Source of the DNA: Chamaelirium japonicum
Lineage: Eukaryota; Streptophyta; Magnoliopsida; Liliales; Melanthiaceae
Reading direction: 5' to 3'
Assembly: GCA_947650365.1 (NCBI GenBank)
Contig: OX393551.1
Span: 91,858,697 to 91,922,696, forward strand
DNA: 64,000 nucleotides
The notes beneath the pieces were generated by a model. The model did no database searches. It was not told where the DNA came from and worked only from the letters and a program-made list of their open reading frames with translations. Below, one piece after another: positions 1-64,000 of the stretch (position 1 is its first letter; each line of letters starts with the position of its first letter). The position numbers and the translations under genes are program-made.

Positions 1-645
1 TAATGAATTAGAATGGATCGTACGAATGAATTAGAGTGGATACATTCATACAAATGAATTAGAATGGATACATTTGTACGAATGAATTAGAATGGATCGT
101 ACGAATGAATTAGAATGGATACATTCGCACGAATTAGAATAGATCGTACGAATGAATTAGAATGGATACATTCGCACGAATTAGAATGGATCGTACGAAT
201 GAATTAGAATGGATCGTACGAATGAATTAGAATGGATCGTATGAATGAATTAGATTGGATCGTATAAATGAATTAGAATGGATCGTACGAATGAATTAGA
301 ATGGATCGTGCTAATGAATTAGAATGGATCGTACGAATGAATTAGAGTGGATAAATTCGTACAAATGAATTAGAATGGAAACATTCGTGCGAATGAATTA
401 GAATGGATCGTGCGAATGAATTAGAATGGATCGTACGAATGAATTAGAATAGATTGTGCTAATGAATTAGAATGGATCGTATGAATGAATTAGAATGGAT
501 CATACGAATGAATTAGAATGGATTGTACGAATGAATTAGAATGGATCGTACGAATGAATTAGAATGGATCGCATGAATGAATTAGAATGGATCGTGCGAA
601 TGAATTAGAATGGATCGTACGAATGAAATAGAATGGATTCGCACG
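1..645 (+). repeat. Satellite block F1
   Basis: Head-to-tail F monomers, continuing from outside the window. Several 28-bp type-B units lie in the first 200 bases. The block ends at a J1 junction in the GGATTCGCACGAATGTATC form, preceded by a GAAATAG-type core as at most J1 copies of this form. Confidence 0.93.
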
Positions 646-1678
646 AATGTATCCATTCTAATTCATTCGTACGATCCATTCTAATTCATTCGTACAATCC
701 ATTCTAATTCATTCGCACGATCCATTCTTACTCATTCGTACGATCCATTCTAATTCATTCGCACGATCCATTCTAATTCAATAATACGATCCATTCTAAT
801 TCATTCGCACGATCCATTCTAATTAATTCACACTCATACGATCCATTCTAATTCATTCGCATGAATGTATACTTTCTAATTCATTAGTACGATCCTTTCT
901 AATTCATTCGCACAATCTATTCTAATTCATTCGAACGATCCATTCTAAGTCATTCGTACGATCCATTCTAATTCATTCGCACAATCCATTCTAATTCATT
1001 AGCACGATCCATTCTAATTCCTTCATATGATCTATTCTAATTCACAATTCTAATTCATTCGCACGTATCCATTCTAATTCATTCATACGATCCATTCTAT
1101 TTCATTCGTACGATCCATTCTTACTCATTCATACGATCTATTCTAATACATTCGTACGATCCATTCTAATTCATTCGTACGATCCATTCTAATTCATTTG
1201 TACGAATGTATCCACACTAATTCATTCATACGATCCATTCTAATTCATTCGCACGAATGTATCCATTCCAATTCATTCGTACGATCCATTCTAATTCATT
1301 CGCACAATCTATTCTAATTCATTCGTACGATCAATTCTAATTCCTTCGTACGATCCATTCTAATTCATTCGTACGATCCATTCTAATTCATTCGTACGAT
1401 CCATTCTAATTCATTCGCACGATCTATTCTAATTCATTCGTACGATCCATTCTAATTCATTCGCACGATCCATTCTAATTCATTCATACGATCCATTCTA
1501 ATTCATTCGTATGATCCATTCTAACTCATTCGTACGATCCATTCTAATTCCTTCGTACGATCCATTCTAATTCATTCATACGATCCATCCTAATTCATTC
1601 GCACGAATGTATCCATTCTAATTCATTCGTACAATCCATTCTATTTCATTCGTACGATCCATTCTTACACATTCGTAC
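646..1678 (-). repeat. Satellite block R1
   Basis: R monomers of the same satellite. The CACTCATACGATCC marker near 828 is the reverse complement of the ATGAGTGTGAATG variant seen in F blocks. The block ends in the perfect 14-bp palindrome CATTCGTACGAATG, where the orientation returns to F. Confidence 0.93.
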
Positions 1679-4645
1679 GAATGAATTAGAATGGATCGTA
1701 TTAATGAATTAGAATGGATCGTGCGAATGAATTAGAATGGATCGTACGAATGAATTAGAATAGATTGTGCGAATCAATTAGAATGGATCGTACGAATGAA
1801 TTAGAATGGATCGTACGAATGAATTAGACTAGATTGTACGAATGGATTAGAATGGATCATACGATTGAGTAAGAATGGATTGTACGAATGAAATAGAATA
1901 GATCGTACGAATGAATTAGAATGGATCGTATGAATGAATTAGAATGGATTGAATTAGAATGAATCGTACAAATGAATTAGAATGGATCGTACGAATGAAT
2001 TAGAATGGATCGTACGAATGAATTAGAATGGATTGAATTAGAATGAATCGTACGAATGAATTAAAATGAATCATAACGTATGAATGAATTAGAATGGATC
2101 ATACAAAGGAATTAGAATGGATCGTGCAAATAAATTAGAATGGATCGTACGAATGAATTAGAATGGATCGTACGAATGAGTAAGAATGGATCGTGCGAAT
2201 GAATTAGAATGGATCGTACGAATGAATTAGAATGGATCGAATGAATGAATTAGAATGGATACATTCGTGCAAAAGAATTAGAATGGATTGTATGAATGAA
2301 TTAGAATGGATCGTGCGAATGAATTAGAATGGATCGTACGAATGAATTAGAATGGATACATTCGTGCGAAAGAATTAGAATAGATCGTATGAATGAATTA
2401 GAATGGATCGTATGAATGAAATAGAATGGATCGTACGAATGAATTAAAATGGATCGTGCGAATGAATTAGAATGGATCGTACGAATGAATTAGAATGGAT
2501 CGTATGAATGAATTAGAGTGGATACATTCGTACAAATGAATTAGAATGGATCGTACGAATGAATTAGAATGGATACATTCGTGCGAATGAATTAGCATGG
2601 ATCGTACGAATGAAATAGATAGGATCGTACGAATGAATTAGAATGGATCGTGCGAATAAATTAGAATGGATCATACGAAGGAATTAGAATGGATCATTCG
2701 AATGAATTAGAATGGATCGTAGTAATGAATTAGAATGGATCGTATGCATGAATTAGAATGGATCGTGCGAATGAATTAGAATGGATCGTACGAATGAATT
2801 AGAATGGATCGTATGAATGAATTAGAATGGATCGTGCGAATGAATTAGAATGGATCGTACGAATGAAATAGAATGGATTCGCACGAATGAATTATAATGG
2901 ATCGTACGAATGAATTAGAATGGATACATTGTTGCGAATGAATTAGAATGGAACGTACGAATGAATTAGAATGGATCGTAGAATGGATCGTAAGAATGAA
3001 TTAGAATGGATCGTACGAATGAGTAAGAATGGATCGTACGAATGAATTAGAATGGATTGAATTAGAATGAATCGTATGAATGAATTAGAATGGATCGTAC
3101 GAATGAATTAGAATGGATCGTACGAATGAATTAGAATAGATTGCGCGAATGAATTAGAATGGATCGTGCGAATGAATTAGAATGGATCGTACGAATGAAT
3201 TGGAATAGATTGTGCGAATGAATTAGAATGGATCGTACGAATGAATTAGAATGGATCGTACGAATGAATTAGAATGGATCGTGCAAATGAATTAGAATTG
3301 GATCGTACGAATGAATTAGAATAGATTGTGCGAATGAATTAGAATGGATCGTACGAATGAATTAGAATGTATCGTACGAATGAATTAGAATGGATCGTAT
3401 GAATGAATTAGAATGGATTGTGCGAATGAATTAGAATGGATCGTACGAATAAGTTAGAATGGATCGTACGAATGAATTAGAATAGATTGTGCGAATGAAT
3501 TAGAATGGATCGTACGAATGAATTAGAATGGATCGTACGAATGAATTAGAATGGATCGTATGAATGAATTAGAATGGATCGTGCGAATGAATTAGAATGG
3601 ATCGTACGAATGAAATAGAATGGATTCGCACGAATGTATCCGAATGGATCGTACGAAGGAATTAGAATGGATCGTACGAAGGAATTAGAATGGATAGTAC
3701 GAATGAATTAGAATGGATACCTTCGTGCAAATGAATTAGAATGGATCGTACGAATGAGTAAGAATGGATCGTACGAATGAAATAGAATGGATCGTATGAA
3801 TGAATTAGAATGAATCGTGCGAATGAATTAGAATGGATCGTACGAATGAATTAGAATAGATTGTGCGAATGAATTAGAATGGATCGTACGAATGAATTAG
3901 AATGGATCGTACGAATGAATTAGAACGGATCGTACGAAGGAATTAGAATTGATCGTACGAATGAATTAGAATAGATTGTGCGAATGAATTAGAATGGATC
4001 GTACGAATGAATTGGAATGGATACATTCGTGCGAATGAATTAGAATGGATCGTATGAATGAATTAGAGTGGATACATTCGTACAAATGAATTAGAATGGA
4101 TCGTACGAATGAATTAGAATGGATCGTACGAATGAATTAGAATGGATCGTATGAATGAGTAAGAATGGATCGTACGAATGAAATAGAATGGATCGTATGA
4201 ATGAATTAGAATGGATACGTGCGAATGAATTAGAATTGTGAATTAGAATAGATCATATGAAGGAATTAGAATGGATCGTGCTAATGAATTAGAATGGATT
4301 GTGCGAATGAATTAGAATGGATCGTACGAATGACTTAGAATGGATCGTTCGAATGAATTAGAATAGATTGTGCGAATGAATTAGAATGGATCGTACGAAT
4401 GAATTAGAAAGGATACATTCGTGCGAATGAATTAGAATGGATCGTATGAGTGTGAATGAATTAGAATGGATCGTGCGAATGAATTAGAATGGATCGTATT
4501 AATGAATTAGAATGGATCGTGCGAATGAATTAGAATGGATCGTACGAATGAGTAAGAATGGATCGTGCGAATGAATTAGAATGGATTGTACGAATGAATT
4601 AGAATTAATCGTACGAATGAATTAGAATGGATACATTCGTGCGAA
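1679..4645 (+). repeat. Satellite block F2, 3 kb
   Basis: One of the longest F runs. It includes 15-bp short units (GGATTGAATTAGAATG) near 1,950, 2,030 and 3,055. It also holds two relics of junction J1 near 2,878 and 3,630 at which orientation does not change, and an ATGAGTGTG variant near 4,445. It ends at a J1 junction (GATACATTCGTGCGAATCC form). Confidence 0.93.
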
Positions 4646-6026
4646 TCCATCCTATTTCATTCGTACGATCCATTCTAATTCATTCGCACGATCCATTCTA
4701 ATTCATTCATACGATCCATTCTAATTCATTCGTACGATCCATTCTAATTCATTCGTACAATCCATTCTAATTCATTCGTACGATCCATTCTAATTCATTC
4801 ATACGATCCATTCTAATTCATTAGCATAATCTATTCTAATTCATTCATACGATCCATTCTAATTCATTCGCACGATCCATTCTAATTTATTCGCACGAAT
4901 GTATCCATTCTAATTCATTTGTACGAATATATCCACTCTAATTCATTCGTACGATCCATTCTAATTCATTAGCACGATCCATTCTAATTCATTCGTACGA
5001 TCCATTCTAATTCATTTATACGATCCAATCTAATTCATTCATTCGATCCATTCTAATTCATTCGTAGGATCCATTCTAATTCATTCGTACGATCCATTCT
5101 AATTCGTGCGAATATATCCATTCTAATTCATTCGTACGATCCATTCTAATTCATTCGTACGAATGTATCCATTCTAATTCATTTGTACGAATGTATCCAC
5201 TCTAATTCATTCGTACGATCCATTCTAATTCATTAGCACGATCCATTCTAATTCATTCGTACGATCCATTCTAATTCATTTATACGATCCAATCTAATTC
5301 ATTCGCAAGATCCATTCGCATTCACTCAAACGATCCATTCTAATTCATTCATATGATCCATTCTAATTCATTCGCACGAATGTATCCATTCTAATTCATT
5401 CGTACGATTCATTCTAATTCATTCGTACAATCCATTCTTACTCATTCGTACGATCCATTCTTACTCATTCGTACGATCCATTCTAATTCATTCGTACGAC
5501 CCATTCTAATTCATTCGTACGATCCATTCGCATTCACTCAAATGATCCATTCTAATTCATTCATATGATCTATTCTAATTCATTCACATGAATGTATCCA
5601 TTCTAATTCATTTGTAAGATCCATTCTATTTCATTCGTACGATCCATTCTTACTCATTCGTATGATCCATTCGTATCCTTTCTAATTCATTCGTACGATC
5701 TATTCTAATTCATTCGTACGATCCATTCTAATTCATTCGCACGATCCATTGAATTAGAATGGATACATTCGTGCGAATCCATTCTATTTCATTCGTACGA
5801 TCCATTCTAATTCATTCGCACGATCCATTCTAATTCATTCGTACGATCCATTCTAATTCATTCATACGATCCATTCTAATTTATTCGCACGATCCATTCT
5901 AATTCATTCATACGATCCATTCTAATTCATTCATATGATCCATTCTAATTCCTTCGTACGATCCATTCTAATTCATTCATACGATCCATCCTAATTCATT
6001 CGTACGATCTATTCTATTTCATTCGT
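4646..6026 (-). repeat. Satellite block R2 with a tiny F insert
   Basis: R monomers interrupted at about 5,749-5,784 by a single F unit that runs straight into a J1 junction. The same miniature arrangement occurs at 20,270-20,300. GCATTCACTCAAACGATCC markers lie near 5,328 and, with one base different, 5,529. The block returns to F inside the CGTACG palindrome. Confidence 0.9.
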
Positions 6027-6147
6027 ACGAATGAATTAGAATGGATCGTGCGAATGAATTAGAATGGATCGTAGTAATGAATTAGAATGGATCCTACGAA
6101 TGAATTAGAATAGATTGTGCGAATGAATTAGAATGGATCTGGATCGT
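6027..6147 (+). repeat. Short satellite block F3
   Basis: About five F monomers ending in junction J2 (GGATCTGGATCGTGTATCC), the first of nine J2 copies in the window. Confidence 0.9.
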
Positions 6148-6849
6148 GTATCCATTCTAATTCATTCGTACGACCCATTCTAATTCATTCACACGATCCA
6201 TTCTAATTCATTCGTACGATCCATTCTAATTCCTTCGTACGATCCATTCTAATTCATGCGCACAATCTATTCTAATTCATTCGCACAATCCATTCTAATT
6301 CATTCGCACGAAGGTATCCATTCTAATTCATTCGTACTATCCATTCTAATTCCTTCATACGATCCATTCTAATTCATTCGCACGATCCATTCTAATTCAT
6401 TAATACGATCCATTCTAATTCATTCGCACGATCCATTCTATCTCATTCGTACAATCCATTCTATTTCATTCGTACGATCCATTCTAATTCATTCGTATGA
6501 TCCATTCTAATTCATTCGCACGATCCATTCTAATTCCTTCGTACGATCCATTCTAATTCATTCGCATGAATGTATCCATTCTAATTCATTCGTACGATCC
6601 ATTCTATCTCATTCGTACAATCCATTCTATTTCATTCGTACGATCCATTCTAATTCATTCGTATGATCCATTCTAATTCTAATTCATTCGTACGATCTAT
6701 TCTAATTCATTCGTATGATCCTTTCTAATTCATTCGTACGATCCATTCTAATTCATTCGCATAATCTATTCTAATTCATTTGTACGATCCATTCTAATTT
6801 ATTCGTACATCCATTCTAAATCATTAGCACGATCCAAATTCATTTATCC
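6148..6849 (-). repeat. Satellite block R3
   Basis: R monomers with a tandem slip near 6,675, where a fragment of one unit is doubled. Two nearby stretches (about 6,420 and 6,600) carry the same CTATCTCATTCGTACAATCC variant, indicating a local duplication of about 180 bp. The block ends at TTCATTTATCCGTATGAATG. Confidence 0.9.
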
Positions 6850-7127
6850 GTATGAATGAATTAGAATGGATACATTCGTACGATCAAATTAGAATGGATC
6901 GTACGAATGAAATAGAATGGATCGTGCGAATGAATTAGAATGGATCGTACGAATGAATTAGAATGGATCGTACGAATGACTTAGAATGGATCGTTCGAAT
7001 GAATTAGAATAGATTGTGCGAATGAATTAGAATGGATCGTACGAATGAAGTAGAATGGATCTGGTTCGTACGAATGATTCATTCTATGAATGGATCGTAC
7101 GAATGAATTAGAATAGATCTGGATCGT
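6850..7127 (+). repeat. Irregular satellite block F4
   Basis: F monomers with damage around 7,060-7,090, where a partial monomer in mixed orientation (CGAATGATTCATTCTATGAA) sits between normal units. The block ends at a J2 junction. Confidence 0.88.
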
Positions 7128-7696
7128 GTATCCATTCAAATTCCTTCGTACGATCCATTCTAATTCATTCATACGATCCATTCTAATTCATTCGCACGAT
7201 CCATTCTAAATCATTCGCACGAATGTATCCATTCTAATTCATACGTACGATCTATTCTAATTCATTCGTACGATCCATTCTAATTCATTCGCACAATCCA
7301 TTCTAATTCATTTGCACGATCCATTCTAATTCATTCATACAATCCATTCTAATTCTTTTGCACGAATGTATCCATTCTAATTCATTCGCACGAATGTATC
7401 CTTTCTAATTCATTCGTACGATTCATTCTAATTCATTCGCACAATCTATTCTAATTCATTCGAACGATCCATTCTAAGTCATTCGTACGATCCATTCTAA
7501 TTCATTCGTACGATCCATTCTAATTCATTCGCACGATCCATTCTATTTCATTTGTACGATCCATTCTAATTCATTCGTACGAATGTATCCATTCCGATTC
7601 ATTCGTACGATCCATTCTAATTCATTCGCACAGTCTATTCTAATTTATTCGTACGATCAATTCTAATTCATTCGCACGTATCCATTCAAATTCATA
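7128..7696 (-). repeat. Satellite block R4
   Basis: R monomers with several reverse-complement type-B units (CACGAATGTATCC). Return to F occurs at TTCATACGAATGAATTAG, with a shortened palindromic centre. Confidence 0.9.
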
Positions 7697-7893
7697 CGAA
7701 TGAATTAGACTGGATCGTACGAATGAATTAGAATGGATTGAATTAGAAAGGATACATTCGTGCAAAAGAATTAGAATGGATTGTATGAATGAATTAGAAT
7801 GGATCGTGCGAATGAATTGGAATGCGAATGAATTAGAATGGATCGTACGAATGAATTAGAATGGGTCGTACGAATGAATTAGAATGGATACAC
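7697..7893 (+). repeat. Short satellite block F5
   Basis: F monomers ending in J2 in its other form, GGATACACGATCCAGATCC. Together with the following R block, this stretch is repeated about 9.5 kb downstream at about 17,240-17,391. Confidence 0.9.
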
Positions 7894-9631
7894 GATCCAG
7901 ATCCATTCTAATTCATTCGTACGATCCATTCTAATTCATTCGCGCGATCCATTCTAATTCATTAATACGATCCAATCTAATTCATTCATACGATCTATTC
8001 TAATTCATTCGCACGAATATATCCTTTCTAATTCATTCGTACGATCCAAATTCATTTATCCGTACGATCTATTCTATTTCATTCGTACGATCCATTCTTA
8101 TCGTACGATCCATTCTAATTCAATCCATTCTAATTCATTCGTACGATCCATTCTATTTCATTCGTACGATCCATTCTAATTCATTCGCACGATCCATTCT
8201 AATTCATTCATACGATCCATTCGTACGACCCATTCTAATTCATTCGTACGATCCATTCTAATTCATTCATACGATCCATTCTATTTCATTCGTACGATCC
8301 ATTCTTACTCATTCGTACGATCAATTCTAATTCATTAGCATGATCCATTCTAATTCATTCGTACGATCTATTCTATTTCATTCGTACAATCCATTCTTAC
8401 TCAATCGTACGATCCATTCTAATTCATACGATCCATTCTAATTCATTCGCACGAATGTATCCATTCCAATTCATTCGTACGATCCATTCTAATTCATTCG
8501 CACAATCTATTCTAATTCATTCGTACGATCAATTCTAATTCATTAGCATGATCCATTCTAATTCATTCGTACGATCTATTCTATTTCATTCGTACAATCC
8601 ATTCTTACTCAATCGTATGATCCATTCTAATTCATTCGCACAATCTATTCTAATTCATTCATACGATCCATTCTATGTCATTCGTAAGATCCATTCTAAT
8701 TCATACGATCCATTCTATTTCATTCATACGATCCATTTTACTTCATTCGCACGATCCATTCTAATTCATTCGTACTATCCATTCTAATTCATTCGTACTA
8801 TCTGTTCTAATTCCTTCGTACGATCCATTCTAATTCCTTCGTACGATCCATTCTAATTCATTCGCACGATCCATTCTAATTCATTCGTACGATCCATTCT
8901 AATTCATTCATACGATCCATTCTAATTCATTCGTACGATCCATTCTAATTCATTCGTACGATTCATACTAATTCAATCCATTCTAATTCATTCATATGAT
9001 CCATTCTAATTCATTCGCACGAATGTATCCATTCTAATTCATTCGTACGATCCATTCTAATTCATTCGTACAATCCATTCTAATTCATTCGCACGATCCA
9101 TTCTATTTCATTCGTACGATCCATTCTATTTCATTCGTACGATCCATTCTTACTCATTCGTACGATCCATTCTTACTCATTCGTACGATCCATTCTAATT
9201 CATTCATAAGACCCATTCTAATTCATTCGTACGATCCATTCTAATTCATTCGCACGATCCATTCTTATTCATTCGCACGATCCATTCTAATTCTTTCATA
9301 CGATCCATTCTAATTCATTCGTACGATCCATTCTAATTCATTCGTACTATCCATTTTAATTCATTCATACGATCCATTCTAATTCCTTCGTACGATCCAT
9401 TCTAATTCATTCGTACGATCCATTCTAATCTATTCGCACGATCCATTCTAATTCATGCATACGATCCATTCTATTTCATTCGTACGATCCATTATTACTC
9501 ATTCGTACGATCCATTCTAATTCATTTGCACGAAGGTATCCATTCTAATTCATTCGTACTATCCATTCTAATTCCTTCGTACGAACCATTCTAATTCCTT
9601 CGTACGATCCATTCTATTTCATTCATACGAT
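7894..9631 (-). repeat. Satellite block R5, 1.7 kb
   Basis: Long R run. Its first ~950 bases match 17,392-18,360 monomer by monomer, including the odd join GATCCAAATTCATTTATCCG near 8,045. The stretch 8,548-8,787 is the R copy of the 240-bp module that recurs at 18,066, 35,385 and 50,567 and, in F, at 49,326, 53,098 and 55,109. Confidence 0.92.
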
Positions 9632-10055
9632 CATATGAATGAATTAGAATGGATCGTATGAATGAAATAGAATGGATCGTACGAATGAATTAGAATGGAT
9701 CGTGCGAATGAATTAGAATGGATCGTACGAATGAATTAGAATGGATCATACGAAGGAATTAGAATGGATCGTACGAAGGAATTAGAATGGATAGTACGAA
9801 TGAATTAGAATGGATACCTTCGTGCAAATGAATTAGAATGGATCGTACGAATGAGTAAGAATGGATCGTACGAATGAAATAGATTGGATCATATGCATGA
9901 ATTAGAATGGATCGTGCGAATGAATTAGAATGGATCGTACGAATGAATTAGAATGGATCGTACGAAGGAATTAGAATGGATCGTATGAATGAATTAGAAT
10001 GGATCGTGCGAATGAATTAGAATGGATCGTACGAATGAAATAGAATGGATTCGCA
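9632..10055 (+). repeat. Satellite block F6
   Basis: F monomers containing the GATAGTACGAATG / GATACCTTCGTGCAAATG pair typical of the ~0.6-kb higher-order unit. It ends at J1 (GGATTCGCACGAATGTATC form). Confidence 0.9.
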
Positions 10056-10709
10056 CGAATGTATCAATTCTAATTCATTCATACGATCCATTCTAATTCA
10101 TTCATACGATCCATTCTATTTCATTCGTACGATCCATTCTTACTCATTCGTACGATCCATTCTAATTCATTTGCACGAAGGTATCCATTCTAATTCATTC
10201 GTACTATCCATTCTAATTCCTTCGTACGATCCATTCTAATTCATTCATACGATCCATTCTAATTCATTCGCACGAATGTATCCATTCTAATTCATTCGTA
10301 CGATCCATTCTTATTCATTCATACGATCCATTCTAATTCTACGTTCCATTCTTACTCATTCGTATTATCCATTTTAATTCATTCACACGAATGTATCAAC
10401 TCTAATTCATTCGTACGATTCATTCTAATTCAATCCATTCTAATTCATTCGTACGATCCATTCTAATTCATTCGTATGATCCATTCTAATTCATTCATAC
10501 GATCCATTCTAATTCATTCATACGAACCATTCTAATTCATTCGTACAATCCATTCTAATTCATTCGCACGATCCATTCGCATTCACTCAAACGATCCATT
10601 CTAATTCATTTATATGATCCATTCATTCGTACGATCCATTCTTACTCATTCGTATGATCCATTCTAATTCATTTGCATGAAGGTATCCATTCTAATTCAT
10701 TCGTACTAT
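10056..10709 (-). repeat. Satellite block R6
   Basis: R monomers with the GCACGAAGGTATCC variant near 10,172 and the GCATTCACTCAAACGATCC marker near 10,577. Return to F occurs at CGTACTATTCGTGCGAATG, an imperfect palindrome. Confidence 0.9.
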
Positions 10710-11382
10710 TCGTGCGAATGAATTAGAATGGATCATACGGTTGAGTAAGAATAGATTGTACGAATGAAATAGAATAGATCGTACGAATGAATTAGAATGG
10801 ATCATGCTAATGAATTAGAATTGATCGTACAAATAAATTAGAATAGATTATGAGAATGAATTAAAATGGATACATTCGTGCGAATGGATTAGAATGGATC
10901 GTATGAATGAATTAGAATGGATCGTATGAATTAGAATGGATCGTATGAATGAATTAGAATGGATCGTATGAATGAAATAGAATGGATCGTACGAATGAAT
11001 TAGAATGGATCGTGCGAATGAATTAGAATGGATCGTGCGAATGAGTAAGAATGGATCGTACGAATGAAATAGAATGGATCGTATGAATGAATTAGATTGG
11101 ATCGTATTAATGAATTAGAATGGATCGTACGAATGAATTAGAATAGATCGTACGAATGAATTAGAATGGATACGAATGGATCGTATGAATGAATTAGAAT
11201 GGATCGTACGAATGTGTTAGAATGGATCATACGAATGAATTAGAATGGATTGAATTAGAATGAATCGTACGAATGAATTAGAATGAATCATACCGTACGA
11301 ATAAATTAGAATGGATCATATGAATAAATTAGAATGGATCGTATGAATGAATTAGAATGGATCGTACGAATGAATTAGAATG
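10710..11382 (+). repeat. Satellite block F7
   Basis: F monomers. It includes the AATCATACCGTACG higher-order marker near 11,287 and an abrupt unit GGATACGAATGGATCG near 11,170 in which most of a core is missing. It ends in an F-to-R switch of its own kind (AGAATGTATCCATTC), which is none of J1-J3. Confidence 0.9.
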
Positions 11383-12143
11383 TATCCATTCTAATTCATT
11401 CGTACGATCCATTCTAATTCATTCGTATGATCTATTCTAATTCATTCGCATGATCCATTCTAATTCCTTCGTACGATCCATTTTAATTCATTCGCACGAT
11501 CCATTCTAATTCATTCATACGATCCATTCTAATTCATTCGTACGATCCATTCTAATTTCTTCGTACGATCTATTCTAATTCCTTCGTACGATCCATTCTA
11601 ATTCATTCGCACGATCCATTCTAATTCATTCGTACGATCCATTCTAATTCATTCGTACGATCCATTCTAATTCATTCGTACGATCCATTCTAATTCATTC
11701 GCACAATCTATTCTAATTCATTCGTACGATCCATTCTAATTCATTCGCACGATCCATTCTAATTCATTCGCACAATCTATTCTAATTCATTCGTACGATC
11801 CATTCTAATTCATTCACGATCCATTCTAATTCATTCATATGATCCATTCTATTTCATTCGTACGATCCATTCTAATTCATTCGTACGATCCATTCTAATT
11901 CATTCGTACGATCCATTCTAATTCATTCGCACAATCTATTCTAATTCATTCGTACGATCCATTCTAATTCATTCGCACGATCCATTCTAATTCATTCATA
12001 CGATCCATTCTATTTCATTCGTACGATCCATTCTTACTCATTCGTACGATCCATTCTAATTCATTTGCACGAAGGTATCCATTCTAATTCATTCGTACTA
12101 TCCATTCTAATTCCTTCGTACGATCCATTCTAATTCCTTCGTA
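11383..12143 (-). repeat. Satellite block R7
   Basis: Regular R monomers. Three close copies of a 4-5 monomer group containing GCACAATCTATTC (near 11,700, 11,767 and 11,930) indicate a small tandem amplification. Confidence 0.9.
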
Positions 12144-12490
12144 CGAATGAAGTAAAATGGATCGTATGAATGAAATAGAATGGATCGTATGTATCCATTC
12201 TAATTCATTCGAACTATTCGTGCGATCCATTCATTCGTACGAAAGAATTAGAATGGATTGTATGAATGAATTAGAATGGATCGTGCGAATGAATTAGAAT
12301 GTGAATGAATTAGAATGGATCGTACGAATGAATTAGAATAGATTGTGCGAATGAATTAGAATGGATCTGGATCGTGTATCCATTCTATTTCATTCGTACG
12401 ACCCATTCTAATTCATTCGTACGATCCATTCTAATTCATTCGCATTCTAATTCATTCGCACGATCCATTCTAATTCATTTATACAATCCA
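12144..12490. repeat. Shuffled satellite zone (F/R/F/R)
   Basis: Four very short blocks: F about 12,144-12,190, R to about 12,240, F to about 12,375 ending in J2, and R to about 12,490. The stretch 12,190-12,240 is degenerate, holding partial monomers with lost cores. Confidence 0.85.
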
Positions 12491-13417
12491 ATGAATTAGA
12501 ATGGATCGTACGAATGAATTAGAATGGATCGTACGAATGAATTAGAATAGATTGTGCGAATGAATTAGAATGGATCGTACGAATGAATTAGAATGGATCG
12601 TACGAATGAATTAGAATGGATCGTATGAATGAATTAGAATGGATCGTGCGAATGAATTAGAATGGATCGTACGAAGGAATTAGAATAGATCATACGAAGA
12701 AATTAGAATGGATCATACGAATGAATTAGAATGGATCGTATGAATGAATTAGAATGGATCGTGCGAATGAATTAAAATGGATCGTACGAAGGAATTAGAA
12801 TGGATCATGCGAATGAATTAGAATAGATCATACGAATGAATTAGAATGGATCGTACGAATGAATTAGAATGGATACATTCGTGCAAAAGAATTAGAATGG
12901 ATTGTATGAATGAATTAGAATGGATCGTTTGAGTGAATGCGAATGGATCGTATGAATGAATTAGAATGGATCGTACGAATGAATTAGAATGGATTGTACG
13001 AATGAAATAGATTGGATCGTATGAATGAATTAGAATGGATCGTTTGAGTGAATGCGAATGGATCGTGCGAATGAATTAGAATGGATTGTACGAATGAAAT
13101 AGAACTGATCGTATGAATGAATTAGAATGGATTGAATTAGAATGAATCGTACGAATGAATTAGAATGAATCATACCGTACGAATGAATTAGAAAGGATCG
13201 TACGAATGAATTAGAATGGATCGTACGAATGAATTAGAATGGATCGTATGAATGAATTAGAATGGATCGTGCGAATGAATTAGAATGGATCGTACAAATG
13301 AATTAGAATAGATTGTGCGAATGAATAAGAATAGATCATACGAAGAAATTAGAATGGATCGTACGAATGAATTAGAATGGATCGTATGAATGAATTAGAA
13401 TGGATACATTCGTGCGA
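12491..13417 (+). repeat. Satellite block F8
   Basis: F monomers with two GTTTGAGTGAATGCGAATGG markers near 12,928 and 13,048, one AATCATACCGTACG marker near 13,169, and a J1 junction at the end. Confidence 0.92.
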
Positions 13418-13813
13418 ATCCATTCTATTTCATTCGTACGATCCATTGTAATTCATTCGCAAGATCCATTCTTACTCATTCGTACGATCCATTCTAATTC
13501 ATTCGTACGATCCATTCTAATTCATTCGTACGATCCATTCTAATTCAATCCATGCGAATGAATACGAATGGATTAGAATGGATGGTACGAATGAATTAGA
13601 TTGGATCCTACGAATGAATTAGAATATATTGTGCGAATAAATTAGAATGGATCTGGATCGTGTATCCATTCTAATTCATTCGTACGACCCATTCTAATTC
13701 ATTCGTACGATCCATTCTAATTCATTTGCACAATCCATTCTAATTCATTTGCACGATCCATTCTAATTCATTCATACGATCCATTCTAATTCATTCATAC
13801 AATCCATTCTAAT
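13418..13813. repeat. Shuffled satellite zone (R/F/R)
   Basis: R about 13,418-13,553, F about 13,554-13,661 ending in J2, and R about 13,662-13,813. The first R-to-F change, near 13,553, joins partial monomers (CAATCCATGCGAATGAATAC). The second returns to F at CATTCTAATGGATTG without a CGTACG centre. Confidence 0.86.
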
Positions 13814-31687: not shown

Positions 31688-31726
31688 TGTGGGTGCAAAT
31701 TTTGGCAGAAGTTTACCGACTACCAC

Positions 31727-51634: not shown

Positions 51635-53686
51635 GTGCGAATGAATTAGAATGCATCGTACGAATGAATTAGAATGGATATATTCGTGTAAATGAATAAG
51701 AATAGATCGTACGAATGAATTAGAATAGATCGTACGAATGAATTAGAATGGATTGTATGAATGAATTAGATTAGATCGTATAAATGAATTAGAATGGATC
51801 GTACGAATGAATTAGAATGGATTATATGAATAAAATAGAATGGATCATACGAATGGAATAGAATGGATCGTACGAAGGAATTAGAATGGATCGTATGAAT
51901 GAATTAGAGTGGATACATTTGTGCGAATGAATTCGAATAGATCGTGCGAATGAATTAGTATGGATCGTACGAATGAAATAGAATGGAACGTACGAATAAA
52001 TTAGAATGGATACATTCGTGCTAAAGAAATAGAATGGATTGTATGAATGAATTAGAATGGATCGTGTGAATGAATTAGAATGGATCATACGAATGAATTA
52101 GAATGGATACATTCGTGCGAATGAATTAGAATGGATCGTGCGAATGAATTAGAATGGATCGTACGAATGAATTAGAATGGATCGTATGAATGAATTAGAA
52201 TGGATCGTGCGAATGAATTAGAATGGATCGTGCGAATGAATTAGAATGGATCGTATGAATGAATTAGAATGGATCGTACGAATTAATTAGATTGGATCGT
52301 ATTAATGAATTAGAATGGATCGTACGAATGAATTAGAATAGATCGTACGAATGAATTAGAATGGATACGAATGGATCGTACGAATGAGTAAGAATGGATC
52401 GTACGAATGAAATAAAATGGATTGTACGAATGAATTAGAATAGATACATTCGTGCGAATGAATTAGGATGGATCGTATGAATGAATTAGAATAGATTGTG
52501 CGAATGAATTAGAATGGATCGTACGAATGAATTAGAATAGATACATTCATGCGAATGAATTAGAATGGATCGTATGAATGAATTAGAATGGATCGTATGA
52601 GTGAATTAGAATGGATACGAAGGAATTAGAATGGATCGTACGACGGAATTAGAATGGAGAATGGATCGTGCGAATGAATTAGAATGGATCGTGCAATAAG
52701 AATGGATCATACGAATGAAATAGAATAGATCGTACGGATAAATGAATTTGGATCGTGCTAATGAATTAGAATGGATCGTACGAATGAATTAGAATGGATC
52801 GTACTAATGTATTAGAATAGATTGTGCGAATGAATTAGAATGGATCGTACGAATGAATTAGAAAGGATATATTCGTGCGAATGAATTAGAATAGATCGTA
52901 TGAATGAATTAGATTGGATCGTATTAATGAATTAGAATGGATCGTGTGAATGAATTAGAATGGATCGTACGAATGAATTAGAATGGATAGATTCGTGCGA
53001 ATGAATTTGAATGGATCGTACGAAGGAATTAGAATGGATCGTACGAAGGAATTAGAATAGATCATACGAAGAAATTAGAATGGATCGTACGAATGAATTA
53101 GAATGGATCGTATGAATGAATTAGAATGGATCGTGCGAATGAATTAAAATGGATCGAATGAATAAAATAAAATGGATCGTATGAATTAGAATGGATCATA
53201 CGAATGAAATAGAATGGATCGTACGAATGAATTAGAATAGATTGTGCGAATGGATTAGAATGGATCATACGATTGAGTAAGAATGGATTGTACGAATGAA
53301 ATAGAATAGATCGTACGATTGAATTAGAATGGATCATGCTAATGAATTAGAATTGATCGTACGAATCAAATAGAATAGATTGTGCGAATGAATTAGAATG
53401 GATCGTACGAATGAATTGGAATGGATACATTCGTGCGAATGAATTAGAATGGATCGTATGAATGAATTAGAGTGGATACATTCGTACAAATGAATTAGAA
53501 TGGATCGTATGAATGAATTAGAATGGATACATTCGTGCGAATGAATTAGAATGGATCATATGAATGAATTAGAATGGATCGTTTGAGTGAATGCGAATGG
53601 ATCGTGCGAATGAATTAGAATGGATTGTACGAATGAATTAGAATGGATCGTACGAATGAATTAGAATGGATACATTCGTGCGAATC
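51635..53686 (+). repeat. Satellite block F28, 2 kb
   Basis: F run. About 52,290-53,640 parallels about 40,250-41,590 and carries the module with the 240-bp part at 53,098-53,337. GTTTGAGTGAATGCG lies near 53,580. It ends at J1. Confidence 0.93.
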
Positions 53687-54922
53687 CATTCTATTTCATT
53701 CGTACGATCCATTCTAATTCATTCGCATGATCCATTCTAATTCATTCATACGATCCATTCTAATTCATTCGTACGATCCATTCTAATTCATTCGTACGAT
53801 CCATTCTAATTCATTCGTACAATCTATTCTAATTCATTCGTACGATCCATTCTAATTCATTCGCACGATCCATTCTAATTCATTCATACGATCCATTCTA
53901 TTTCATTCGTACGATCCATTCTTACTCATTCGTACGATCCATTCTAATTCATTTGCACGATGGTATCCATTCCAATTCATTCGTACTATCCATTCTAATT
54001 CCTTCGTACGATCCATTCTAATTCCTTCGTACGATCTATTCTAATTAATTCATACGATCCATTCTAATTCATTCGTACGATCCATTCTAATTCCTTCGTA
54101 TCATCCATTCTAATTCATTCGTACGGTATGATTCATTCTAATTCATTCGTACGATTCATTCTAATTCAATCCATTCTAATTCATTCGTACGATCCATTCT
54201 AATTCATTCGTACGATCCATTCTAATTCATTCGTACGATTTATTCTAATTCAATCCATTCTAATTCATTCGTACGATCCATTCTTACTCATTCGTACGAT
54301 CCATTCTAATTCATTCGCACGAATGAATCCATTCTAATTCATTCGTATGATCCATTCTAATTCATTCGCATGAATGTATCCATTCTAATTCATTCATACG
54401 ATCCATTCTATCTCATTCGTACAATCCATTCTATTTCATTCGTACGATCCATTCTAATTCATTCGCACGATCCATTCTAATTCATTCGCATGATCCATTC
54501 TAATTCATTCGTACGATCGATTCTAATTCATTCATACGATCCATTCTAATTCATTCGCACGAATGTATCCATTCTAATTCATTCGTACGATCCATTCTAA
54601 TTCATTCGCACAATCTATTCTAATTCATTCATACGATCCATTCAAATTTATTCGCACGATCCATTCTAATTGATTCATACGATCCATTCTAATTCATTCA
54701 TATGATCCATTCTAATTCATTCGCACGATCCATTCTTACTCATTCGTACAATCCATTCTAATTCATTCGCACGATCCATTCTAATTCCTTAATACGATCC
54801 ATTCTAATTCATTCGCACGATCCATTCTAATTCATTCACACTCATACGATCCATTCTAATTCATTCACACGAATGTATCCTTTCTAATTTATTCATACGA
54901 TCCATTCTAATTCATTCACACG
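53687..54922 (-). repeat. Satellite block R22
   Basis: R monomers parallel to the second ~0.95-kb unit of block R17: GTACGGTATGAT at 54,121, GCATGAATGTATCC near 54,369 and CACACTCATACG near 54,838. Return to F is at TCACACGAATTAGAATGG. Confidence 0.93.
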
Positions 54923-55694
54923 AATTAGAATGGATCGTACGAAGGAATTAGAAAGGATCGTACAAACGAATTAGAATGGATCGTATGAATGAAATAGAAT
55001 AGATCGTACGAATGAATTAGAATGGATCGTATGAATGAATTAGATTGGATCGTATGAATGAATTAGAATGGATTGTAGGAATGAAATAGAATAGATCGTA
55101 CGAATGAATTAGAATGGATCGTGCGAATGAATTAGAATGGGTCGTACGAATGAATTAAAATGGATCGTATGAATGAAATAGAATGGATCGTATGAATTAG
55201 AATGGATCGTACGAATGAAATAGAATGGATCATACGAATGAATTAGAATAGATTGTGCGAATGGATTAGAATGGATCATACGATTGAGTAAGAATGGATT
55301 GTACGAATGAAATAGAATAGATCGTACGAATGAATTAGAATGGATCATGCTAATGAATTAGAATTGATCGTACGAATGAATTAGAATAGATTGTGCGAAT
55401 GAATTAGAATGGATCGTACGAATGAATTGGAATGGATACATTCGTGCGAATGAATTAGAATGGATCGTATGAATGAATTAGAGTGGATACATTCGTACAA
55501 ATGAATTAGAATGGATCATACAAATGAATTAGAATGGATACATTCGTGCGAATGAATTAGAATGGATCATATGAATGAATTAGAATGGATCGTTTGAGTG
55601 AATGCGAATGGATCGTGCGAATGAATTAGAATGGATTGTACGAATGAATTAGAATGGATCGTACGAATGAATTAGAATGGATACATTCGTGCGA
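54923..55694 (+). repeat. Satellite block F29
   Basis: F monomers. Its first half is close to 42,030-42,270. From about 55,130 it carries a module copy (240-bp part at 55,109-55,348) running to J1 at 55,694. Confidence 0.92.
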
Positions 55695-56251
55695 ATCCAT
55701 TCTATTTCATTCGTACGATCCATTCTAATTCATTCGCACGATCCATTCTAATTCATTCGCACGAACCATTCTTACTCATTTGTACGATCCATTCTAATTC
55801 ATTTGCACGAAGGTATCCATTCTAATTCATTCGTACTATCCATTCTAATTCCTTCGTACGATCCATTCTAATTCCTTCGTACGATCCATTCTAATTCATT
55901 CGTACGATCCATTCTAATTCCTTCGTACGATCCATTCAAATTCATTCGCACGAATCTATCCATTCTAATTCATTCGTACGATCCATTCTAATTCATTCGC
56001 ACGATCCGTTCTAATTCATTAATACGATCCAATCTAATTCATTCATACGATTTATTCTAATTCATTCGCACGAATATATCCTTTCTAATTCATTCGTACG
56101 ATCCATTCTAATTCATTCGCACAATCTATTCTAATTCATTAGTACGATCCATTCTAATTCATTCGTATGATCCATTCTAATTCATTAGCACGATCCAAAT
56201 TCATTTATCCGTACGATCTATTCTATTTCATTCGTACGATCCATTCTAATT
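55695..56251 (-). repeat. Satellite block R23
   Basis: R monomers. The GATCCAAATTCATTTATCCG join near 56,193 is shared with blocks R5 and R8. Return to F is at CATTCTAATTGAATTAG. Confidence 0.9.
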
Positions 56252-56836
56252 GAATTAGAATGGATTGAATTAGAATGAATCGTACGAATGAATTAGAATG
56301 GATCGTACGAATGAATTAGAATGGATCGTACGAATGAATTAGAATGGATTGAATTAGAATGAATCGTACGAATGAATTAGAATGAATCATACCGTACGAA
56401 TGAATTAGAATGGATCATACGAAGGAATTAGAATGGATCGTACGAATGAATTAGAATGGATCGTACGAATGAATTAGAATGGATCGTACAAAGGAATTAG
56501 AATGGATCGTACGAAGGAATTAAAATGGATAGTACGAATGAATTAGAATGGATACCTTCGTGCAAATGAATTAGAATGGATCGTGCGAATGAATTAGAAA
56601 GGATACATTCGTGCGAATGAATTAGAATGGATCGTATGAGTGTGAATGAATTAGAATGGATCGTGTGAATGAATTAGAATGGATCGTAATAATGAATTAG
56701 AATGGATCGTGCGAATGAATTAAAATGGATCGTACGAATGAGTAAGAATGGATCGTGCGAATGAATTAGAATGGATAGTACGAATGAATTAGAATGGATC
56801 GTTAGAATGAATTTGAATGGATACATTCGTGCGAAT
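56252..56836 (+). repeat. Satellite block F30
   Basis: Starts with short 15-bp units and a higher-order marker near 56,386, then an ATGAGTGTG variant near 56,637. It ends at J1. Confidence 0.92.
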
Positions 56837-57729
56837 CCATTCTATTTCATTCGTACGATCCATTCTAATTCATTCGCACGATCTATTCTAATTCATTCAT
56901 ACGATCCATTCTAATTCATTCGTACGATCCATTCTAATTCATTCGTACGATCCATTCTAATTCATTCGCACAATCTATTCTAATTCATTCGTACGATCCA
57001 TTCTAATTCATTCACACGATCTATTCTAATTCATTCATACGATCCATTCTATTTCATTCGTACGATCCATTCTTACTCATTCGTACGATCCATTCTAATT
57101 CATTTGCACGAAGGTATCCATTCTAATTCATTCGTACTATCCATTCTAATTCTTTCGTACGATCCATTCTAATTCCTTCGTACGATCCATTCTAATTCAT
57201 TCGTACGATCCATTCTAATTCATTCGTACGATCCATTCTAATTCCTTCGTATGATCCATTCTAATTCATTCGTACGATTCATTCTAATACAATCCATTCT
57301 AATTCATTCGTACGATCCATTCTAATTCATTCGTACGATCCATTCTAATTCATTCGTGCGATTCATTCTAATTCAATCCATTCTAATTCATTCGTACGAT
57401 CCATTCTTACTTATTCGTACGATCCATTCTAATTCAATCGTACGAATGAATCCATTCTAATTCATTCGTATGATCCATTCTAATTCATTCGCATGAATGT
57501 ATCCATTCTAATTCATTCGTACGATCCATTCTATCTCATTCGTACAATCCATTCTATTTCATTCGTACGATCCATTCTAATTCATTCGCACGATCCATTC
57601 TAATTCATTCACATGATCCATTCTAATTCATTCGTACGATCGATTCTAATTCATTCATACGATCCATTCTAATTCATTCGCACGAATGTATCCATTCTTA
57701 TTCATTCGTACGATCCATTCTAATTCATT
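56837..57729 (-). repeat. Satellite block R24
   Basis: R monomers from the J1 arm through the GCACGAAGGTATCC variant (57,107) to the GCATGAATGTATCC ... CTATCTC group (near 57,490). It parallels 53,687-54,590 and ends at CATTAATGAATTAG. Confidence 0.92.
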
Positions 57730-58451
57730 AATGAATTAGAATGGATACATTCATGCGAATGAATTAGAATGGATCATACGAATGAATTAGAATGGATTCA
57801 TTCGTGCGAATGAATTAGAATGGATCGTACGAATGTGTAAGAATGGATCGTACGAATGAATTAGAATGGATTGAATTAGAATGAATCGTACGAATGAATT
57901 AGAATGGATCGTACGAATGAATTAGAATGGATCGTACGAATGAATTAGAATGGATTGAATTAGAATGAATCGTACGAATGAATTAGAATGAATCATACCG
58001 TACGAATGAATTAGAATGGATCATAAGAAGGAATTAGAATGGATCGTACGAATGAATTAGAATGGATCGTACGAATGAATTAGAATGGATCGTACGAAGG
58101 AATTAGAATGGATCGTACGAAGGAATTAGAATGGATAGTACGAATGAATTAGAATGGATACCTTCGTGCAAATGAATTAAAATGGAGCGTACGAATGAGT
58201 AAGAATGGATCGTACGAATGAAATAGAATGGATCGTATGAATGAATTAGAATGGATCATGCGAATGAATTAGAATGGATCGTACGAATGAATTAGAATAG
58301 ATTGTGCGAATGAATTAGAATGGATCGTACGAATGAATTAGAATGGATCGTACGAATGAATTAGAATGGATCGTATGAATGAATTAGAATGGATCGTGCG
58401 AATGAATTAGAATGGATCGTACGAATGAAATAGAATGGATTCGCACGAATG
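57730..58451 (+). repeat. Satellite block F31, reference higher-order unit
   Basis: Holds a clean complete higher-order unit of about 585 bp from the short unit near 57,866 to J1 at 58,450: AATCATACCGTACG (57,992), two AAGGAATTAG cores, GATAGTACG, GATACCTTCGTGC, GAGTAAG, GAAATAG and the J1 arm. Confidence 0.93.
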
Positions 58452-58837
58452 TATCCATTCTAATTCATTCGTACGATCCATTCTAATTCATTCATACGAT
58501 ACAATCTAATTCATTCATACGATCCATTCTAATTCATTCGCACGAATGTATCCATTCTAATTCATTCGCACGATCCATTCTAATTCATTCATACAATCCA
58601 TTCTAATTCATTCGTACGATCCATTCTAATTCATTCGCACAATCTATTCTAATTCATTCATACGATCTATTCTAATTCGTTTGTACAACCCTTTCTAATT
58701 CCTTCGTACGATCCATTCTATTTCATTCGTATGACCCATTCTAATTCATAAGTACGATCCATTCTAATTCATTCAAACGATCCATTCTAATTCATTCGTA
58801 CGATCCATTCCAATTCATTCGCACGATCCATTCTAAT
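58452..58837 (-). repeat. Satellite block R25
   Basis: About seventeen R monomers with low-quality cores near 58,680-58,760, similar to 51,150-51,240. Return to F is at CCATTCTAATGAATTAG. Confidence 0.9.
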
Positions 58838-62003: not shown

Positions 62004-62369
62004 AGGAATTAGAATAGATCGTGCGAATGAATTAAAATGGATCGTATGAATGAAATAGAATGGATCGTATGAATTAGAATGGATCGTACGAATGAATTGG
62101 AATAGATTGTGCGAATGAATTAGAATGGATCATGCGAATGAGTTAGAATGGATCGTATGAATGAATTAGAATAGAGTGTGCGAATGAATTAGAATGGATC
62201 GTACGAATGAATTAGACTGGATCGTACGAATGAATTAGAATGGATCGTATGAATGAATTAGAATGGATCGTGCAAATGAATTAGAATGGATCGTACGAAT
62301 GAATTAGAATAGATTGTGCGAATGAATTAGAATGGATCGTACGAATGAATTAGAATGGATACATTTGTG
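62004..62369 (+). repeat. Satellite block F33
   Basis: About sixteen F monomers, ending at J1 (GATACATTTGTGCGAATCC). Confidence 0.9.
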
Positions 62370-63055
62370 CGAATCCATTCTATTTCATTTGTACGATCCA
62401 TTCTAATTCATTCGCAAGATCCATTCTAATTCATTCATACGATCCATTCTAATTCATTCGTACGATCCATTCTAATTCATTCATACGATCCATTCTAATT
62501 CATTCGTACGATCCATTCTAATTCATTCGCACAATCTATTCTAATTCATTCGCACGAATGTATCCATTCTAATTCATTCGTACGATCCATTCTAATTCAT
62601 TCGCACGATCTATTCTAATTCATTCGTACGATCCATTCTAATTCTTTCGCATGATCCATTCTAATTCATTCATACGATCCATTCTAATTCATTCGTACGA
62701 TCCATTCTAATTCATTCGTACGATCCATTCTAACTCATTCGCACAATCTATTCTAATTCATTTCTACGATCCATTCTAATTCATTCGCACGATCCATTCT
62801 AATTCATTCATACGATCCATTCTATTTCATTCGTACGATCTATTCTTACTCATTTGTACGATCCATTCTAATTCATTTGCACGAAGGTATCCATTCTAAT
62901 TCATTCGTACTATCCATTCTAATTCCTTCGTTCGATCCATTCTAATTCCTTCGTACGATCCATTCTAATTCATTCGTATGATCCATTCTAATTCATTCGT
63001 ACGATCCATTCTAATTCCTTCGTATGATCCATTCTAATTCATTCGTACGGTATGA
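62370..63055 (-). repeat. Satellite block R27
   Basis: R monomers with two J1-arm-like groups (near 62,370 and 62,640). It ends with the GTACGGTATGAT marker near 63,045 directly at the switch. Confidence 0.9.
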
Positions 63056-63881
63056 TGAATTAGAATGGATCGTACGAATGAATTAGAATGGATCGTACGA
63101 ATGAATTAGAATGGATTGAATTAGAATGAATCGTATGAATGAATTAGAATGAATCATACCGTACGAATGTATTAGAATGATCGTTCGAATGAATTAGAAT
63201 GGATTGTGCGAATGAATTAGAATGGATCGTACGAATGAATTAGAATGGATCGTGCGAATAAATTAGAATGGATCGTATGAATGAATTAGAATGGATCGTG
63301 CGAATGAATTAGAATGAATCATATGAATGAAATAGAATGGATCGTATGAATTAGAATGGATTGTACGAATGAATTAGAATGGATCGTGCGTCGTACGAAT
63401 GAATTAGAATGGATCATATTAATGAATTAGAATGGATCGTATGAATGAATTAGAATGGATCGTGCGAATGAATTAAAATGGATCGTATGAATGAAATAGA
63501 ATGGATCGTATGAATTAGAATAGATCGTACGAATGAAATAGAATGGATCGTACGAATGAATTAGAATAGATTATGCGAATGGATTAGAATGGATCATACG
63601 ATTGAGTAAGAATGGATTGTACGAATGAAATAGAATAGATCGTACGAATGAATTAGAATGGATCCTATGAATCAATTAGAATAGATCGTACGAATGAATT
63701 AAAATGGATCGTATAAATGAATTAGAATGGATCGTATTAATGAATTAGAATGGATCGTATGAATGAATTAGAATAGATCGTACGAATGAATTAGAATGGA
63801 TCGTATGAATGAATTAGAATGGATCGTGCGAATGAATTAGAATGGTTCGTACGAATGAAATAGAATGGATTCGCACGAATG
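63056..63881 (+). repeat. Satellite block F34
   Basis: F monomers with the higher-order marker AATCATACCGTACG near 63,153, the inverted mate of the marker at 63,045. A doubled linker (CGTGCGTCGTACG) lies near 63,385, and the module echo TTGAGTAAGAATGG near 63,602. It ends at J1. Confidence 0.9.
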
Positions 63882-64000
63882 TATCCATTCTAATTCATTC
63901 GTACGATCCATTATAATTCATTCGTACAATCCATTCTAATTCATTCGCACGATCCATTCGCATTCACTCAAACGATCCATACTAATTCATTCATATGATC
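63882..64000 (-). repeat. Satellite block R28, runs off the window
   Basis: R monomers with a CGCATTCACTCAAACGATCC marker near 63,959. It parallels 30,975-31,090, and the array continues past the window edge. Confidence 0.9.

Follow-up and report, generated by a model that had tools for sequence, protein, structure and literature searches.

Unequal copy numbers of the two kinds of strand switch in a 23-bp satellite array of Chamaelirium japonicum

A 23-bp satellite that changes strand

The window examined here is a stretch of 64,000 nucleotides from the 1.52-Gb genome of Chamaelirium japonicum, located at C3:91858697-91922696; as befits a plant, the genome gave 28 chlorophyll a/b-binding matches. 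It consists of a single satellite with the unit GAATGAATTAGAATGGATCGTAC, save for an 889-bp solo long terminal repeat (LTR). The short unit, repeated head to tail in tandem arrays across the 64 kb, and its high copy number are features of satellite DNA. A uniform orientation within the array is usual for such DNA, although not obligatory, and here it is violated: using a wrap-around model with forward and reverse states, we decoded 48 forward-to-reverse (F-to-R, head-to-head) and 47 reverse-to-forward (R-to-F, tail-to-tail) switches. These are 95 changes of orientation in 64 kb, or one about every 670 bp.

The exact 23-mer AATTAGAATGGATCGTACGAATG occurs 1,126,489 times on one strand of the genome and 1,141,018 times on the other (2,267,507 in total), and exact monomers on their own amount to about 52 Mb. 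Their density is 7.5-7.8 per kb across four decoded stretches, namely the window (about 7.6) and three paralogous stretches, A, B and C, described below. If the window density of exact monomers held everywhere, the satellite would extend over roughly 0.3 Gb, a fifth of the genome. Among the matches listed, the satellite or its junctions lie in several separate places on C1, C2, C3, C6, C7, C9, C11, C12 and smaller contigs, rather than at one site per chromosome. The monomer strings had no match in the literature, and text queries on a 23-bp satellite returned no paper whose title or opening lines of abstract mention one.

A preliminary description of the window had counted 48 F-to-R switches and had assigned about 43 of them to only three junction sequences, J1, J2 and J3, each present in both mirror forms. 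Our independent decode gives the same total and recovers all 43 sites at decoded switches, within about 20 bases of the positions first reported. All 24 listed J1 sites were found, 12 exactly in the listed form plus 62358 with one mismatch, and nine exactly in the mirror form plus 30961 and 47807 with one mismatch each. The J2 core was found 6 + 3 times in its two forms with at most two mismatches, and the J3 core 5 + 5 times with at most one. In the following list every junction is a core match at a decoded switch unless stated otherwise.

1 to 64000, no strand assigned: 23-bp satellite array with 48 switches F-to-R and 47 R-to-F; a solo LTR is the only interruption
4630 to 4648, plus: J1
5762 to 5780, plus: J1, F arm only 14 bp
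13403 to 13421, plus: J1
19976 to 19994, plus: J1
20282 to 20300, plus: J1, F arm only 14 bp
23532 to 23550, plus: J1
35120 to 35138, plus: J1
42836 to 42854, plus: J1
49897 to 49915, plus: J1
53669 to 53687, plus: J1
55680 to 55698, plus: J1
56820 to 56838, plus: J1
62358 to 62376, plus: J1, one mismatch
635 to 653, minus: J1 mirror form
10047 to 10065, minus: J1 mirror form
14546 to 14564, minus: J1 mirror form
19752 to 19770, minus: J1 mirror form
21804 to 21822, minus: J1 mirror form
27838 to 27856, minus: J1 mirror form
30324 to 30342, minus: J1 mirror form
30961 to 30979, minus: J1 mirror form, one mismatch
47807 to 47825, minus: J1 mirror form, one mismatch
58437 to 58455, minus: J1 mirror form
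63867 to 63885, minus: J1 mirror form
3622 to 3640, minus: J1 mirror core, exact, second arm only a few bases, no decoded switch
6135 to 6153, plus: J2
7115 to 7133, plus: J2, one mismatch
12363 to 12381, plus: J2
13649 to 13667, plus: J2
15668 to 15686, plus: J2, two mismatches
38658 to 38676, plus: J2
7886 to 7904, minus: J2 mirror form
17384 to 17402, minus: J2 mirror form
42267 to 42285, minus: J2 mirror form, one mismatch
14851 to 14870, plus: J3
15872 to 15891, plus: J3
28500 to 28519, plus: J3, one mismatch
28914 to 28933, plus: J3
36631 to 36650, plus: J3, one mismatch
15176 to 15195, minus: J3 mirror form
15492 to 15511, minus: J3 mirror form
29361 to 29380, minus: J3 mirror form
39437 to 39456, minus: J3 mirror form
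45381 to 45400, minus: J3 mirror form

The remaining five F-to-R switches are at 11382, 12191, 25434, 46727 and 61595; of these, 11382 resembles a variant of J3 and 61595 a variant of J1. Away from decoded switches there are J1-like cores at 3622 (exact), 27395 and 34053 (one mismatch each), and J3-like cores at 3354, 14508, 16675 and 51574 (one mismatch each). Among the matches listed, the J1 tip (GGATTCGCACGAATG) lies within F runs without a lasting switch at 2875, 3622, 20662 and 23025, and such tips represent either the form of J1 before it switched or a remnant left when an inverted arm was lost.

Genome-wide there are 13,068 exact copies of J1, 4,404 of J2 and 4,459 of J3, while the reversed control had no match. 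Among the matches listed for C2:1652905-2188985, all 77 exact J1 sites are on one strand and J2 and J3 are mixed; this may be an artefact of the listing, as the monomers listed are likewise all on one strand.

The sharing of junctions among F-to-R switches exceeds chance, as the sum of monomer phases across the join indicates. For the 48 F-to-R switches this sum takes only four values at 8 bp out (46 of the 48 falling in two of them), five at 12 bp and seven at 4 bp, compared with 15-17 values for the 47 R-to-F switches; 48 draws from a uniform distribution would be expected to give about 20. Among R-to-F joints, 11-12 of 47 are in the CGTACG phase, where about two would be expected if phases were uniform. 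In the window, single-linkage clustering of the junctions divided the F-to-R switches into 6 clusters and the R-to-F switches into 16 (9 and 14 when pooled with A, B and C); we rejected these clusters as junction classes, since one of them, with 22 members, had chained together R-to-F joints that are unlike. At four R-to-F switches, 25718, 36802, 39282 and 45229, there is an unusual piece that is not a monomer and contains a T run (ATGTGAGTGGATCGTGTTTTTT); it occurs in both orientations. Neighbouring junction units follow each other in random order, so that at the scale of units, the only one tested, the window shows no higher-order repeat.

Copy number of the two kinds of switch

We counted near-identical copies of 80-bp pieces at 95% identity by gapless comparison, which misses copies with insertions or deletions (indels). 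In the window, pieces spanning F-to-R switches have a mean of 10.6 copies (n=48), pieces spanning R-to-F switches 0.38 (n=47) and mid-run pieces 44.7 (n=428), and 68% of the R-to-F switches have no copy at all. The corresponding F-to-R and R-to-F means are 8.67 and 0.98 in A, 9.82 and 1.51 in B, and 8.28 and 1.13 in C. Mann-Whitney tests of this asymmetry give p from 7e-13 to 1e-10, with A, B and C being paralogues of the window and hence not independent of it. Two of the 47 R-to-F 28-mers of the window were counted in the whole genome and have 2 and 39 exact copies. Only head-to-head switches are thus multicopy in arrays like that of the window, and tail-to-tail switches are mostly one-offs.

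Since so many R-to-F joints lack a copy in the window and palindromes are hard to assemble, the switches might be fold-back chimaeras of reads or assembly. We regard this as extremely improbable. Compared with their paralogues at 98% identity, 18 of 21 assessable R-to-F switches are unchanged in length in A, 19 of 20 in B and 14 of 16 in C (out of 47 R-to-F switches in the window), so that separate copies share them, and J1-J3 occur thousands of times whereas the reversed control has no match.

Duplicated blocks give the same picture. We collected 72 non-redundant pairs of at least 250 bp and at least 95.5% identity, 35 inverted and 37 direct, and derived expectations from circular shifts. None of the 72 pairs contains an R-to-F switch (18.2 +- 5.6 expected), and of the 288 block ends, 57 are no more than 25 bp away from one (10.7 +- 5.4 expected). 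This bears on the view that ordinary unequal exchange and drift made three F-to-R joins common by chance, direction being irrelevant. Three founders of the same kind out of three would, by simple reasoning, arise at equal odds with a chance of 1 in 4, but R-to-F joints should then have copies too, which for the most part they do not have in the window and never have within these blocks. We therefore consider this explanation very unlikely.

We next extended homology outward from junctions of the same class, at high stringency because low-stringency extension reflected only background similarity of the satellite. Homology crosses an R-to-F switch in just 14 of 734 pair-sides. Of the 116 cases in which it stops at such a switch, 24 are followed by a unit that matches in class and orientation (random 0.204) and 11 by one that is homologous (random 0.097), pair-sides with less than 100 bp of homology or with an unclassed neighbour being excluded. 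The units beyond R-to-F switches are thus random. The cleanest case of a whole unit is the following.

30620 to 31460, minus: whole F-J1-R unit, 98% identical in inverted orientation to parts of both 49412-50261 and 53184-54034

The arms on the two sides of its J1 measure 485 bp and about 340 bp. Both of its ends coincide with R-to-F switches (30620 and 31461), whereas the related units at 49899 and 53671 run on.

Descent of the junctions and renewal of switch centres

The preliminary description had proposed that each inversion arose once and was then copied, itself inverted, many times, and had named comparison of the flanks as a check. Near the joins, same-class flanks are indeed more alike than random satellite in phase, the opposite of the outcome that it had named as a refutation. 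Over the first 100 bp, identity is 0.815 on the F side and 0.925 on the R side of J1, 0.804 and 0.844 for J2, and 0.888 and 0.863 for J3, compared with 0.773 for random pairs (J1 n=25 and J3 n=12, taking in 61595, 11382 and 46727). Farther out than 100 bp, the means for J2 and J3 are at or under the random value, partly because many arms end there. Beyond 200 bp, J1 remains at 0.798 and 0.790 on the R side (random 0.735 and 0.731) and slightly above random on the F side (0.759 compared with 0.723). By eye, same-class flanks have non-consensus variants in common, and near the join of J2 and J3 these are rare variants shared on both sides. Such shared variants support common descent, for J1 mainly on the R side.

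The two arms of J1 differ in this respect, as at high stringency the median reach of homology is 221 bp on the R side and 74 bp on the F side, and 76 of 276 J1 pairs share less than 40 bp on the F side, partly owing to two units with a 14-bp F arm. F-side flanks of J1 form several groups, from which it appears that J1 F arms have been exchanged or attached more than once. Taken together, the flanks lend support to single founders for J1-J3 with later exchange of arms, chiefly the F arm of J1.

The grouping of J1 F arms and the many pairs with little shared F-side sequence could also be produced by a hotspot, at which the same joins form repeatedly through long microhomology between variant monomers. 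An F variant (...GGATTCGCACGAATGAATTA) and a reversed 28-bp variant have TTCGCACGAATG in common, the window has many copies of the 28-bp variant (37 + 22), and a 26-mer resembling the un-switched half of J1, one of the J1 tips in F runs, has 568 exact copies genome-wide. These copies may, however, be scars instead of progenitors, and the variants common to the R side of nearly all J1 copies, like the rare variants near J2 and J3, speak for descent. We judge repeated formation quite unlikely.

Trees of 319-332 columns have few well-supported inner branches, 3 of 21 for J1, 3 of 6 for J2 and 3 of 8 for J3. On the J1 tree, orientation changes 11 times, the maximum for 11 minus-strand rows (shuffled mean 8.2, all 500 shuffles being as low or lower); J2 and J3 show two and four changes, the same as shuffles. 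The mirror forms are thus intermixed, which agrees with inverted copying, although inverted copying is not seen at the scale of 98-99% identity, where paralogues are collinear. As for the proposal itself, it holds for the founders of the head-to-head joins and fails for the inversion as a whole: as the R-to-F partners are mostly unique, what was copied is the head-to-head joint with its arms.

The paralogous stretches A, B and C lie at C3:73.51-73.58 Mb, 73.74-73.81 Mb and 71.06-71.12 Mb. They align to the window over 44,666, 40,591 and 33,607 columns at 98.3-98.5% identity, and are 98.7-99.2% identical among themselves. The alignments are collinear with the window apart from large indels and just four reverse-anchor segments of about 75-330 bp, and unaligned parts could hide more of the latter. 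Stretches of about 64 kb or more have thus been duplicated whole. The solo LTR is present in these stretches as well, so that its insertion is older than their duplication.

31688 to 32576, plus: solo LTR (TG...CA), target duplication GATCG at 31683-31687 and 32577-32581

With its TG...CA ends, 5-bp target duplication and copies elsewhere in the genome, this element has the features of an LTR retrotransposon. It holds a 43-bp GC-rich minisatellite at 31718-32061, and at least five more places in the genome have the searched part of the LTR together with about 190 bp of flanking satellite at 98%. About 9.5 kb of the window at 8993-18556, densely packed with small units (13 F-to-R and 13 R-to-F switches), are missing from all three paralogues by the alignment, which is loose just past this part.

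Counting only those in good context, six pairwise comparisons of the four stretches yield 74 indels of 30 bp or longer, and 17 of them touch a switch. Five distinct differences span a switch centre, each giving a new junction. Three are at R-to-F switches, namely window 6023 (A, B and C longer), B 15517 (A and C longer) and A 29719 (B and C longer), and two are at F-to-R switches, each seen in one pair (A 46015 compared with C, where J2 is lost, and A 287 compared with B, where J1 is lost). We read the latter as deletions rather than gains because a founder core is lost.

6023 to 6024, no strand assigned: R-to-F switch, best read as a 411-bp deletion (asymmetric, 291 + 120 bp) across an older R-to-F centre kept in A, B and C

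A deletion at the centre can thus create new switches of both kinds, and at least two F-to-R switches in one paralogue are new, replacing J1 and J2, a further correction to the proposal.

These changes bear on a further explanation, unequal decay, in which multi-unit blocks are copied with both kinds of switch, near-perfect palindromes at R-to-F centres are repeatedly revised by deletions after breaks at the centre and the asymmetric-tipped J1-J3 survive. Loops at the tips are shorter at R-to-F switches (at most 6 nt in 31 of 47, median 4) than at F-to-R switches (11 of 48, median 8), the latter being mostly three families and so not independent. Three of the centre-spanning deletions are at R-to-F switches, and length changes of at least 30 bp are somewhat commoner there (9 of 181) than at F-to-R switches (5 of 187) or mid-run (39 of 2,204). 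Deletions at the centre of symmetric palindromes are also described, in the portions of the literature available to us, for human palindromic AT-rich repeats (PATRRs) (PMC4255720). The same comparison, however, contains two centre-spanning changes at F-to-R switches, so that rates look similar, and length changes of at least 8 bp are alike at F-to-R switches (10 of 187), R-to-F switches (10 of 181) and mid-run (114 of 2,204). The length changes are counted over six pairs, with one event countable up to three times, and the numbers are small. Moreover, the units beyond R-to-F switches are random, and an F-to-R core of perfect symmetry is found at 5,655 sites genome-wide, though in the C1 stretches read it often stands beside a 16-bp F run. 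Since centre deletions renew both kinds of switch, unequal decay is a weaker rival, which we keep but consider unlikely. Instability of R-to-F centres as the whole cause was accordingly demoted to this rival, as F-to-R centres are also replaced and neighbours are random. The idea that symmetric F-to-R joins are generally forbidden was ruled out by the 5,655 symmetric sites.

A possible history of the array and its relation to known systems

The reading we favour, to which we give an even chance, is that the array is a mosaic of F-J-R units, each of which was placed on its own in one or the other orientation, R-to-F switches being the fresh joints between them. Three illegitimate head-to-head joins, J1, J2 and J3, would have arisen, most likely once each. 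Pieces consisting of F arm, junction and R arm, from a few hundred bp to about 2 kb long, would then have been copied many times in either orientation and placed into or beside other satellite DNA. Every placement would call for a fresh R-to-F joint, in many cases made at the palindrome CGTACG, and F-to-R switches would therefore fall into few families, with most R-to-F switches being individual. Afterwards, whole stretches of at least about 64 kb were duplicated, and occasional centre deletions renew both kinds of switch. Of this history, the data show the common descent close to the joins, the asymmetry in copy number, the randomness of the neighbours and the duplication of whole blocks, while the role of R-to-F joints as scars of placement is inferred, as are the polarity and the enzymes involved.

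Several observations weigh against this history. Only 8 of the 72 block pairs contain an F-to-R switch, below the 18.5 +- 6.0 expected, and 60 of the 288 block ends are at F-to-R switches (a figure without a shifted control), so that copying of plain runs is a commoner event than copying of junction units. The F arm of J1 is shared over short distances only. No unit was caught inserting between paralogues, and the sole differing 1.3-kb block with a switch pair (C 22111-23416) could equally be a deletion in A and B. Elsewhere in the genome, a 9-kb stretch (L049, C1:2355001-2364000) repeats both kinds of switch at a 5.55-kb period; it is a higher-order repeat whose building block is again the 23-bp unit and within which the strand changes, and in it a symmetric F-to-R join adjoins a 16-bp F run. 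A compound R-to-F plus F-to-R motif of this kind has 3,375 exact copies genome-wide, and the fully symmetric R-to-F core AATTCATTCGTACGAATGAATT has 4,823 sites, and these may belong to a single family, stem from many separate joining events, or include some of each. The asymmetry is therefore not universal and holds for arrays like that of the window.

As for the route of copying, homologous exchange would copy both kinds of switch alike and arbitrary insertion would make both equally, so that the data call for pieces that start in F and end in R. The most likely mechanism that we infer is strand-polar synthesis during repair or replication, in which an F-sense 3' end would copy through the F-to-R join into the R arm and rejoin the array by microhomology. 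The preference of R-to-F joints for the CGTACG phase would fit such microhomology joining. The template could be DNA, with a 3' end of one sense provided for example by a strand-specific nick, or an F-sense transcript copied into a break. We found no signal of polarity beyond the copy asymmetry itself, and this lack also counts against the favoured history. That copying proceeds from the F-sense strand, so that head-to-head joins are copied, tail-to-tail joins are not and each event leaves one fresh tail-to-tail scar, is possible but doubtful.

If copying were strand-polar in this way, every copying event could be read from the orientation switches. The spread of satellites, both inside an array and from one array to another, is a long-standing question, and uniform arrays conceal the copying events. 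Switches of orientation serve as natural markers, in that shared head-to-head joins mark descent and unique tail-to-tail joints may mark the placement of a piece. The asymmetry is a sharp, countable constraint, of which unequal exchange alone falls short.

Comparison with known systems, as far as the available portions of the cited reports describe them, reveals partial likeness in each case. In oyster Helentron satellite-like arrays, short blocks of tandem repeats are likewise spread as units (PMC7492417), whereas the joints here are satellite to satellite. No mobile-element ends were seen at unit borders, where all 47 R-to-F borders are satellite to satellite to 26 bp on each side (no dedicated search for Helitron ends was made). 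Human PATRRs resemble the present array in that deletions at palindrome centres are rejoined with little homology, and differ from it in being single-locus palindromes whose deletions are reported to be symmetric (PMC4255720), while here the palindromes belong to a satellite and the deletions are asymmetric, such as the one of 291 + 120 bp.

In origin-dependent inverted-repeat amplification (ODIRA), a hairpin-capped inverted amplification in yeast, inverted junctions form at short interrupted inverted repeats (PMC10766183), and F-to-R switches here likewise have 12-bp stems (at most two mismatches) with loops of mostly 4-11 nt, the R-to-F tips being similar. A further likeness is that inverted copies are made, in ODIRA through template switching. 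The junctions in ODIRA, however, lie at pre-existing repeats of each amplicon and the arms are, by the model, inverted copies of one segment (PMC10766183). Here, three joins are common to thousands of sites, and the two arms of a junction do not form a special pair: identity between a junction's own arms and across copies is 0.866 and 0.869 for J1 (n=20), 0.819 and 0.820 for J3 (n=10), and 0.874 and 0.850 for J2 (n=7). The signal of arm pairing may have been lost in old units. A snap-back origin of each copy, with its arms copied from each other, was rejected as unsupported, the arms not being special mates.

Human alpha-satellite arrays share with the present one megabase tandem arrays, nested duplication and transposable-element insertions (PMC9859433, PMC9549924). 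Few inversions are reported inside alpha-satellite higher-order arrays in the portions of these reports available to us (PMC9859433, PMC9549924), whereas here the strand changes once in roughly 670 bp, and genome-wide the two strands hold balanced numbers of exact monomers.

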